Positions 26,718 through 29,106 of a stretch of DNA of 64,000 bases are shown in pieces. The DNA lies in contig NZ_JACHHZ010000004.1 in assembly GCF_014202975.1 (NCBI RefSeq), positions 62,001 to 126,000 of the forward strand. The letters are read 5' to 3'. Position 1 is the first letter of the stretch. The number at the start of each line of letters is the position of its first letter. The notes under the pieces are model-generated. The model saw only the letters and a program-made list of their open reading frames with translations. It had not been told where the DNA came from and ran no database searches. A program made the translations under genes and the position numbers. This DNA is from Povalibacter uvarum (GTDB lineage Bacteria > Pseudomonadota > Gammaproteobacteria > Steroidobacterales > Steroidobacteraceae).

Positions 26718-28769
26718 TTACTTCGTCAGCTTGCCGACGAGGCGCGACAGCAGCGAGTCGTTCTTCGGCAGCTTGCGGATCGCGCTTTCCGACAGATGCA
26801 CATCGCGTGCTTCGTCGAGCAGCTGTTCATTCAGGCTCTTCTTGGGCTGCAGCGCCTTGTGCCTGCCCGTCGCCGAAGTCTTGCTCAGCGGCGGCGAACG
26901 CTTCGTTGCCGGCGCGCCGTTCTTTGCAGCGGGCTTGAGCGCCTTGTGCTTGCCGCTCGCATCCACTCTGAATGATCCCGTTGCGTTCGGCTTGAACGAA
27001 CCGGTGGCATTCGGGTTGAACGCGCCGGTCCCGTTGGGATTGAACGAGCCCGTGGCGTTCGGATTGAACGCGCCGGTCGGGCTGCGATCGGTGACTTCCA
27101 TCGTAACCGTCGGAATGTTGGGCTTGCGATCGCGGGCCTGGGTGAGCTCGATGATCTTGCCTTCGTTCTTGGATGCAGCGACGGCTGTGGCCTTCGGCGC
27201 GGGCGCATCTTTGAAACGCGACTGCTCCGCTGCGCTGATGCGAATGACTGTGGGCGAGGGGAAGAACGTACGCAGGTAGCCGGTGACAGCCTCAGCGGAG
27301 ACTTCCTCGCGGAAGAAGCCCAGGCGCAGCGAGTAAACGATCTTGCCGCTGCCGGCGTTGGCGATCGAGTAGACGCGATACGCCTCGAAGATGTCGAGGT
27401 GCGGCATCGCATCGAGATTCACGGGGCGCTCGGAGACGACGAGCTGGATGGAGAACCACTTCTCCTGCGAGTCGTCGTTCAATTCGGCGCTCGTGAGTGC
27501 ACGAATGGTCTGCGTGCTGTCGAGCTCTGGCGTAGGTCCGTTGCGGTTCGCCGACGCAGCGATCGCTGGCGCGGCGGGGCGCTTCTCCGGAACGCTCGGA
27601 GCAGCCGCCGGAGTCTTTGCGACTGCGGGCGTGACGGGTGCCGTGGGAGCAGCAGCCTTGCGAGGTGCTTCCTTTGCCGCAGCGGGAGTTGTCTTCTGGG
27701 GCGCGGGTGCCGGTGCCTTGGCGGCAGCGGGTCCAGGCTGAATGCCCGTCGATTCCAGGCTCAGCGACACGGAAGGAATCTCGACGCCCTTGCCGACGTG
27801 GAACGGTTGAGCGGGACCGGCGGCAGGCGTGGGCGCAGCGGGCTTCGCGGGCTCTGGGTCAGAGAGCGTGAATGCGATTGGAGTCTCCGGCGCCTTCAGT
27901 GCCGGCTTCTTCGCTTCCGGTGCCGGAGCGGCAGGCTTGGCCGGCGTCTGCGCGGGCGTTGCCTTGATGACTGCATCCGTCTTGGTGACGGCGATGACTC
28001 GAGCAGCCGGCTTCGGCGCCTGGAGCGCAGGCGGATCCCACGACAGTTCGATTGCGGCGAGATCGTCGGCAGGCGAAGAAGCTTTCGCTGGCGACGCCGT
28101 TCCTTTCGCAGCCGCGGGTTCGTCGAGCCACTCCATTTCCATCTCGACGACCGGTGTCGGCGCGGGTGGTGCGGGAGGAGGCGCGGCCTTGACCGGCGCC
28201 GCCGCAACAGGAGCGGGAGCGGGCTTCGGTGCGGGAGCAGCGGCAGCAGCAGGCTTCACAGGCGCTGGCGTAGGCGCAACCACGGCAGCGGGCTTCGCGG
28301 GCGTCGGAGCCGGCGCAGGCGGTGCGGGCTTGACGACGACGGGCTTCGGCGCAGCCGCGGGTTTCTCGGCGAGACCGACCGGTCGCTTCCACGTCGCCGT
28401 GGTTTCGGTGTCCGGCAGGAATCCGCGAGCGAAGCGGCGATCGTCATCCGACAAGCACGCGACGAAAGCAGTCGGATAGTTGTCGCGTACTGCAGCGAGT
28501 ACGCGTTCCGCGTCAGCCTCGCTCGTGAAAAAACCCAGGCGCAGGCGATGGCGTGTGCGGCCGTCCTCGGAGCGGGCGACCTGATAGAGCTTGTACGTTT
28601 CGAAACCGGGGATGGTCTTGCCGTTGGTCTGGACGGGCGCGATCGAAGCGCACAAGTTGATCACGAAGAGGGAAGTGGCGGGCGTTGCGGATGCAACCGG
28701 CGCGAGCAACGGATCGGCGAATGCCGCGCCATTGCGCCCCACGAAGACCTTGCTGGTGTTCTCTTCCAC
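26718..28769 (-). CDS. SPOR-domain protein with Ala/Pro-rich linker and octapeptide repeats
   Basis: The product is 683 residues from a GTG at 28769, chosen because GGGGAAG precedes it. The N-terminal module (about 30-125; LFVINLCASIAPVQ...YKLYQV...RHRLRLGFFTSEADAERVL) and a module near 430-520 (FSIQLVVSERPVNL...YRVYSI...VYSLRLGFFREEVSAEAV) both look like SPOR domains, which bind peptidoglycan stripped of stem peptides at division sites. They flank about 300 residues of Ala/Pro/Lys-rich low complexity. Near the C-terminus are five octapeptide repeats (TGSFNPNA type, about 565-604) and two KHKAL/RHKAL motifs. No signal peptide or clear transmembrane helix was seen, so a cytoplasmic location is possible. 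The long leader carries a cyclic-di-GMP-I riboswitch. Confidence 0.75.
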   Translation of the reverse strand: MEENTSKVFVGRNGAAFADPLLAPVASATPATSLFVINLCASIAPVQTNGKTIPGFETYKLYQVARSEDGRTRHRLRLGFFTSEADAERVLAAVRDNYPTAFVACLSDDDRRFARGFLPDTETTATWKRPVGLAEKPAAAPKPVVVKPAPPAPAPTPAKPAAVVAPTPAPVKPAAAAAPAPKPAPAPVAAAPVKAAPPPAPPAPTPVVEMEMEWLDEPAAAKGTASPAKASSPADDLAAIELSWDPPALQAPKPAARVIAVTKTDAVIKATPAQTPAKPAAPAPEAKKPALKAPETPIAFTLSDPEPAKPAAPTPAAGPAQPFHVGKGVEIPSVSLSLESTGIQPGPAAAKAPAPAPQKTTPAAAKEAPRKAAAPTAPVTPAVAKTPAAAPSVPEKRPAAPAIAASANRNGPTPELDSTQTIRALTSAELNDDSQEKWFSIQLVVSERPVNLDAMPHLDIFEAYRVYSIANAGSGKIVYSLRLGFFREEVSAEAVTGYLRTFFPSPTVIRISAAEQSRFKDAPAPKATAVAASKNEGKIIELTQARDRKPNIPTVTMEVTDRSPTGAFNPNATGSFNPNGTGAFNPNATGSFKPNATGSFRVDASGKHKALKPAAKNGAPATKRSPPLSKTSATGRHKALQPKKSLNEQLLDEARDVHLSESAIRKLPKNDSLLSRLVGKLTK
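26958..27077 (-). repeat. Five tandem 24 bp units encoding TG(A/S)FxPNx octapeptides
   Basis: Five in-register 24 bp repeats within the SPOR-protein gene encode TGAFNPNA, TGSFNPNG, TGAFNPNA, TGSFKPNA and TGSFRVDA. They are coding repeats rather than a CRISPR: there are no spacers and the unit length equals eight codons. Copy number may vary between strains. Confidence 0.8.
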
Positions 28770-28886
28770 TTGTTCTTCCCCAACGCAATGCAGCCAGACC
28801 GCAGGCAGCTACGGTCACAAGCGAGAGTCATTCCGGCGGGGGAGAGTGCGTGTATGCGCTTACACACTCATGGTGTCACGTCAGCG

Positions 28887-28910
28887 CGCCCGAGATTTTT
28901 TTTTCGGGCG
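28887..28910. repeat. Hairpin with poly-T/A loop in the SPOR-gene leader
   Basis: CGCCCGA (28887-28893) and TCGGGCG (28904-28910) form a 7 bp stem whose 10-nt loop is almost entirely T (plus strand) or A (the transcript of the SPOR gene). It lies between the riboswitch aptamer and the gene start. The run is in the loop, not after the stem, so it is not a standard terminator on either strand. Confidence 0.5.
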
Positions 28911-28963
28911 AGGACGATGAAGAAACGGATTCTCACCGACTCGACCGATTGCGTCGCTGATTC

Positions 28964-28984
28964 AACCGCATTCGTCCTGCGGTT
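28964..28984 (-). promoter_or_regulatory. Hairpin at the 3' edge of the riboswitch aptamer
   Basis: AACCGCA (minus strand, from 28984) pairs with TGCGGTT (to 28964), a perfect 7 bp stem starting just where the aptamer ends. It may be part of the expression platform, competing with or stacking on aptamer helix P1. This is inference from position; no U-run follows. Confidence 0.4.
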
Positions 28985-29075
28985 CGTGGCAACCCCGCTG
29001 TCTTGGGAAATGACTTCCGTTAGACCGGTAGTTTTGCGTCCTCGCCTTTCGGCGAGTTTGCCCTTGGCACAGATC
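28981..29075 (-). promoter_or_regulatory. Cyclic-di-GMP-I (GEMM-I) riboswitch aptamer
   Basis: Read on the minus strand, this stretch contains the diagnostic GEMM-I pieces in order. GGGCAAAC is followed by a P2 helix CUCGCC-GAAA-GGCGAG with its GNRA tetraloop, then GACGCAAAAC, CCGGUCUAACGG, a P3 hairpin (GGAAGUCAUUUCC), AAGAC and the conserved AGCGGGGUUGCC. GGCAA at the 5' side pairs with UUGCC at the 3' side to close P1. The layout matches the Vibrio cholerae Vc2 aptamer closely. It binds the second messenger c-di-GMP. It lies in the leader of the SPOR-domain gene (start 28769), leaving about 210 nt for an expression platform; ON or OFF polarity cannot be read. Confidence 0.92.
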
Positions 29076-29076
29076 A

Positions 29077-29106
29077 ATTCTTTGGCAGCGCGGCGGGATA
29101 AGTCAA
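29077..29106 (-). promoter_or_regulatory. Predicted sigma-70 promoter of the riboswitch transcript
   Basis: On the minus strand, TTGACT (29106-29101) is followed after 18 bp by AAGAAT (29082-29077). The implied start site at about 29070 is right at the 5' edge of the c-di-GMP aptamer, which supports the assignment. The -10 matches consensus at four of six positions. Confidence 0.5.

Follow-up and report, generated by a model that had tools for sequence, protein, structure and literature searches.

A c-di-GMP class I aptamer is conserved upstream of a tandem-SPOR gene in Steroidobacteraceae and most likely acts as a translational OFF switch

According to PMC9262584, the c-di-GMP-I class includes a translational OFF switch, Vc2 of Vibrio cholerae, whose nucleotide G20 is treated there as a factor in ligand selectivity and not as a hard filter. 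On the protein side, PMC6895207 describes the SPOR domain of RlpA as contacting denuded glycan through Q270, A273, F274 and a patch of arginines. Here we analyze a locus in a stretch of 64,000 nucleotides (the window) in which an aptamer of the Vc2 class lies directly before the gene of a protein with two SPOR-like domains (Table 1). We found no report of a c-di-GMP-I (GEMM-I) riboswitch with a SPOR-domain target in the open-access papers searched, among which most papers of subscription journals are absent, so that an earlier report is possible; the same open-access search returned no riboswitch report for Steroidobacter. The locus thus apparently combines a known riboswitch class with an unreported conserved target.

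Table 1. Position of the aptamer, leader elements, target gene and protein domains in the window.
Feature	Position	Strand	Basis
Sigma-70-like promoter, TTGACT - 18 nt - AAGAAT	29077..29106	-	Motif; TTGAC in related loci
c-di-GMP-I (GEMM-I, Rfam subtype c-di-GMP-I-GGC) aptamer	28984..29071	-	RF03167 and RF01051 scores; covarying helices
Hairpin of the leader, adjoining the C-rich candidate anti-ribosome-site on its 5' side	28844..28869	-	Leader sequences, by eye
CUCCCCCGCC, candidate anti-Shine-Dalgarno	28835..28844	-	Sequence, CCCC in relatives, folding
GGGGAAG, Shine-Dalgarno-like, 5 nt before GTG	28775..28781	-	GGGGA in related leaders
Target gene, GTG start at 28769, 683 aa, tandem SPOR-like, no clear export signal	26718..28769	-	ORF, homologue alignment, hydropathy
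SPOR-like domain 1 (~aa 33-106)	28452..28673	-	Pfam SPOR, AlphaFold, Foldseek
SPOR-like domain 2 (~aa 437-516)	27222..27461	-	AlphaFold, Foldseek

An Rfam scan of the window gave a single match at gathering threshold, a c-di-GMP-I-GGC aptamer (RF03167) that covered model positions 1-80 completely with 73 bits (cut-off 59 bits, E = 2.2e-15). The parent family RF01051 scored the same segment at 83.6 bits (cut-off 35 bits), the highest value among the ten c-di-GMP-I matches of the genome. The initial annotation had placed a GEMM-I aptamer on the minus strand and had proposed an Rfam covariance-model search as a check, and the aptamer indeed scored above both curated cut-offs. In an alignment of 24 aptamers, from which the structure used in the covariation test was itself derived, 98.5% of the helix cells were paired and six pairs had both sides changed; on four of five measures none of 500 shuffles reached the observed values, and on the fifth 15 of 500 did. 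A chance match was ruled out, given a score far over threshold and the conserved pairing with the gene. By sequence and structure, the segment is a c-di-GMP class I aptamer.

The annotated arrangement of aptamer and gene was also borne out, since we found a GTG-start open reading frame of 683 aa with 215 nt between the end of the aptamer match and the start codon. Homologues of the gene were present in 30 of the 60 genomes searched, the own genome included. The aptamer lay directly upstream in all 14 genomes of the genus (own included; in G004 according to coordinates and the covariance model) and in 11 of the 13 other genomes of the family with a homologue, that is, in 25 of 27; it was found neither before the homologue of G015, a short paralogue with a frame of 251 aa, nor before that of G022. 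The remaining three genomes (G039, G050 and G056) come from other families of the order and matched remotely; Rfam detected no aptamer at their three loci, two of which (L038 and L040) encode a different, exported-looking protein. From a second, named collection of 99 relatives, the nearest of which are Steroidobacter and Peristeroidobacter, 80 loci were kept, eight of which had the gene cut by the contig start. When the 72 loci with a 5' end were scanned with a covariance model trained on 24 of these aptamers, 69 had a match of at least 64 bits directly before the gene; the exceptions were L140 and L150, with weak matches (35.8 and 25.1 bits), and L111, with none. The two collections overlap, so their counts are not independent. 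The pairing of aptamer and gene is strongly conserved and kept widely across related bacteria, and it is therefore beyond chance. We also observed that the tandem-SPOR gene of G006 (L046 / L079) is split over two frames in the assembly while its aptamer scores normally, and that short SPOR-like paralogues with frames of ~250-380 aa, some of them two-domain, occur in G015 (L066), G184, G203, G211, G214, G228 and G234; the L066 paralogue has no aptamer upstream.

Besides the aptamer of the window, the genome carries nine further c-di-GMP-I aptamers. Four of them precede genes for Ig-like/fn3 proteins: two lie in tandem, 180 nt apart, ahead of one gene at L071 (G000:C2:383260-383345 and 383526-383611), and a third aptamer of L071 (G000:C2:385422-385510) stands before a similar gene nearby. 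Another (L068, G000:C4:546427-546519) precedes an M23 peptidase gene followed by a gene that is secA-like by eye, and one precedes a ResA/TlpA-like redoxin gene followed by an unknown gene and a gene that is TPR-like by eye. The others lie before a gene for a DUF11/THxN-type protein, before an unknown gene with a TPR gene after it, and before pilM. Judged from these targets, the tandem-SPOR gene looks to belong to a surface-related regulon.

The genome contains 36 GGDEF matches, so c-di-GMP signalling is well represented, and we infer that c-di-GMP is the ligand of the window RNA. At the position that we take to be equivalent to G20 of Vc2, the window aptamer and the nine other aptamers of the genome carry G, as do 68 of 69 relatives in the named collection (66 assigned by script; L086 and L152 by eye). 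These data argue against sensing of a different cyclic dinucleotide, for instance 3',3'-cGAMP, which we regard as very improbable, even though PMC9262584 describes a GEMM-I member that senses cGAMP and a few relatives deviate at the mapped position: A occupies it in L025 (G029) and L085 and C in L026 (G028), where ligand specificity may have changed.

The initial annotation had further proposed a matching promoter before the aptamer, and we found there a promoter-like pair with 9 of 12 consensus bases. Two sites of this kind occur on both strands of 4.5 kb, compared with a mean of 0.3 in shuffled sequences, and TTGAC is present near the 5' end of the aptamer in 66 of 69 related loci, from 75 nt upstream of the aptamer match to 12 nt inside it. 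In the leader, the C-rich element CUCCCCCGCC is complementary to two G-rich stretches, the GCGGGG of the aptamer and the GGGG in the ribosome site; leaders of the genus, inspected by eye, likewise hold a C-rich element able to pair with one or the other, and 39 of 69 related leaders, those of all 11 genus loci included, have CCCC in the stretch from the aptamer to the ribosome site. Hairpins comparable to the one in Table 1 were seen at the same place in several relatives of the genus (by eye). Of 24 leaders, 19 have GGGGA at a distance of 10-12 nt from the start, and the motif was found in 44 of the 69 leaders of the named collection; the expression platform is not universal, because 25 of these 69 leaders are without it. 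Among the 13 genus leaders, the element is GGGGAAG in 11, where it lies 11-12 nt before the start, GGGGAAC in L049 and GGGAC in L044. The counts of TTGAC, GGGGA and CCCC are raw, without a shuffle control, and those of GGGGA carry a bias toward finding the motif, since the script partly used such ribosome-site motifs to choose among the in-frame starts; its choice was wrong for L120 and probably for L152. The alignment of 14 leaders, with a mean identity of 40% and many gaps, appeared too poor for platform covariation. An upstream mini-ORF (ATG AGT GTG TAA, 28871-28860) was dropped as a candidate, as it was unseen in the relatives read by eye.

To compare the two states of the leader, 24 leaders were folded at 30 C, either free or with the aptamer pairs enforced. 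In 14 leaders (the 13 of the genus and that of G028, a set picked from the 24 after the first folding results were known), ribosome-site exposure was 0.41 in the free state and 0.21 with the aptamer enforced, a difference of 0.20, compared with -0.12 to 0.05 in 20 shuffled sets (Wilcoxon p = 0.0017). In 34 non-genus leaders the corresponding values were 0.31 and 0.17, a difference of 0.14, compared with -0.01 to 0.06 in 20 shuffled sets (p = 8e-6); this set comprised all non-genus leaders of the named collection with GGGGA, the 25 leaders without the motif and 10 genus leaders being omitted, and some of its genomes are also among the 24 folded first. The leaders are related, which overstates their independence and makes both p-values optimistic. 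On average, the formed aptamer is thus predicted to hide the ribosome site more than the free leader does, an effect that shuffled leaders do not reproduce. The leader of the window itself showed a small predicted change (0.22 to 0.18), many leaders hardly any, and in a few the change was reversed (L048, 0.18 to 0.23, and L063, 0.45 to 0.65, among the first 24; L148, 0.17 to 0.29, and L096, 0.16 to 0.36, among the 34). Overall, we favour a translational OFF switch, computationally the most likely direction, at a confidence that the small or reversed changes in some leaders keep moderate. This adds a direction of control to the pairing proposed in the initial annotation, which had stated none.

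We propose that transcription would start just upstream of the aptamer. When c-di-GMP is low, the GCGGGG of the aptamer 3' strand could pair with the C-rich sequence of the leader, the GGGGAAG ribosome-binding site would be more exposed, and the tandem-SPOR protein would be made. At high c-di-GMP, the folded aptamer would retain its own GCGGGG strand and release the C-rich element, which could then cover the ribosome-binding site, and translation would drop. The product, expected mainly at low c-di-GMP, would be soluble and probably located in the cytosol, with long Ala/Pro linkers carrying its two SPOR-fold domains. This explanation as a whole, switch and product together, we hold to be rather probable.

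The opposite direction, an ON switch in which the bound aptamer would free the ribosome site or prevent (Rho-dependent) termination, would have the protein made at high c-di-GMP, the usual pattern for adhesion genes. Other aptamers of the genome precede pilM, genes whose products are putatively at the surface and genes for Ig-like proteins that are exported, and surface functions of such kinds are often raised by c-di-GMP. The near absence of change in the folding of the window leader, and the few relatives that run opposite to the OFF prediction, point the same way, and the pilM switch of Geobacter, a GEMM-I relative, is an ON switch according to PMC9262584. However, the stronger covering of the ribosome site with the aptamer in the sets of 14 and 34 leaders lay outside all 20 shuffled sets in each case, and no intrinsic-terminator-like site was found between aptamer and gene, a result that ruled out control by intrinsic termination. 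An ON switch is thus the less likely direction; Rho-dependent or other transcriptional control in place of translational control is possible.

To characterize the product, 19 homologues were aligned, and they matched over two blocks with Ala/Pro-rich linkers between them. A SPOR domain had been annotated in this protein, and we found Pfam SPOR above its cut-off at aa 60-103 (25.4 bits, cut-off 21), that is, in domain 1, where 16 of 50 members matched at E<=0.01; the second SPOR-like domain had gone unmentioned, and it matched Pfam SPOR in none of the 50 members. AlphaFold models had pLDDT values of 82 (domain 1) and 81.4 (domain 2), and for both the best four Foldseek matches in the PDB were SPOR domains (DamX, CwlC and RlpA for domain 1; CwlC, RlpA and DedD for domain 2), with E values of 0.01-0.06, none reaching 0.001, and TM scores by target length of up to 0.72, for RlpA. 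Searching solved structures by sequence gave nothing useful, and NCBIfam gave no match. Taken together, the models make a SPOR fold likely for both domains. We also observed a conserved LDSTQTIRALT motif before domain 2, and C-terminal repeats of Thr-Gly-Ser/Ala-Phe units with TG(K/R)HKAL-like motifs (window 26845-27080, minus strand) whose number varies within the genus. The gene looks monocistronic. Convergent neighbours downstream, named by eye from sequence, were a zinc-ribbon-like gene in 51 of 73 loci and a uvrA-like gene in 51 of 73, and an RraA-like gene follows in the window and eight other loci; no functional partner stands out, and deriving a function from the neighbours was abandoned.

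The initial annotation had linked the protein to peptidoglycan binding and thereby to cell-wall or division functions. If the protein were a periplasmic peptidoglycan-binding or division protein, c-di-GMP would control such functions through it. The SPOR fold of both models agrees with this reading, as do the aptamer before the M23 peptidase gene, the invariant arginines R66, R71, R73 and R75 of domain 1, and, in an alignment by eye, an invariant asparagine (domain 1) and an invariant glutamine (domain 2) opposite Q270 of RlpA. In the same kind of alignment, the RlpA contacts Q270, A273, F274, R302, R309 and R311 were only partly kept in both domains: F274 is replaced by serine in both, and one of the two RVR arginines aligns in domain 2. 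Hydropathy of the window protein and 72 homologous frames gave no clear indication of a signal peptide or an anchor in the membrane. The best 19-residue value of the window protein was 1.51, in a segment overlapping the first SPOR strand, whereas the values near the N terminus of the four other SPOR proteins found in the genome are 1.92-2.44; separation by hydropathy alone is weak, as two exported-looking controls reached only 1.60 and 1.67. Of the 72 homologous frames, 7 had a value of at least 1.6 at some point, in most cases within an Ala/Pro-rich linker or a SPOR strand; in L086 the hydrophobic stretch precedes the SPOR domain and may lie ahead of the true start. A misplaced start hiding an anchor was ruled out for the window, whose open frame of 696 aa exceeds the 683 aa by at most 13 residues; in G002 the open frame is 631 aa against 627 aa. 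Peptidoglycan binding is accordingly doubtful, and we judge the envelope role annotated for this protein to be improbable. A related SPOR-like domain was also seen at L038, L040, L212, L213, L214, L216, L217 and L219, where the encoded proteins look exported, are mostly ~800-900 aa long and, by eye, contain TPR-like and barrel-like parts; at L038, L212, L214 and L217 an adjacent frame holds numerous CxxCH haem motifs.

A cytosolic location, and with it any function of the protein, can be proposed only conditionally. Tentatively, the riboswitch could be a family-wide OFF switch over cytosolic tandem-SPOR proteins that do not bind the wall and that have an intracellular role, for example as a scaffold at low c-di-GMP. 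If this were true, SPOR domains would have a new intracellular use under direct control of a second messenger, and a truly cytosolic protein would cast doubt on the practice of taking any SPOR domain for a cell-wall binder. Whichever its location, the tandem-SPOR gene is a strongly conserved and apparently undescribed target of a c-di-GMP riboswitch, and the conserved control suggests that its product is important when Steroidobacteraceae switch lifestyle.

The aptamer of the window is like other c-di-GMP-I (GEMM-I) riboswitches of RF01051 and RF03167 in sequence and structure, and it differs from those in the literature on these families in its conserved target, a tandem-SPOR protein. It shares its class with Vc2, whose translational OFF control is also the direction proposed here; the target differs from that of Vc2, and the direction at our locus is a computed one. 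As to the SPOR family PF05036 (RlpA, DamX, DedD, CwlC), the predicted fold is common to both domains of the window protein, and domain 1 exceeds the Pfam cut-off. In contrast to that family, the window protein carries two domains per chain, has no clear export signal, keeps the glycan-contacting residues incompletely (by eye), and lacks the first helix in the model of domain 1, while that of domain 2 has only a short one.
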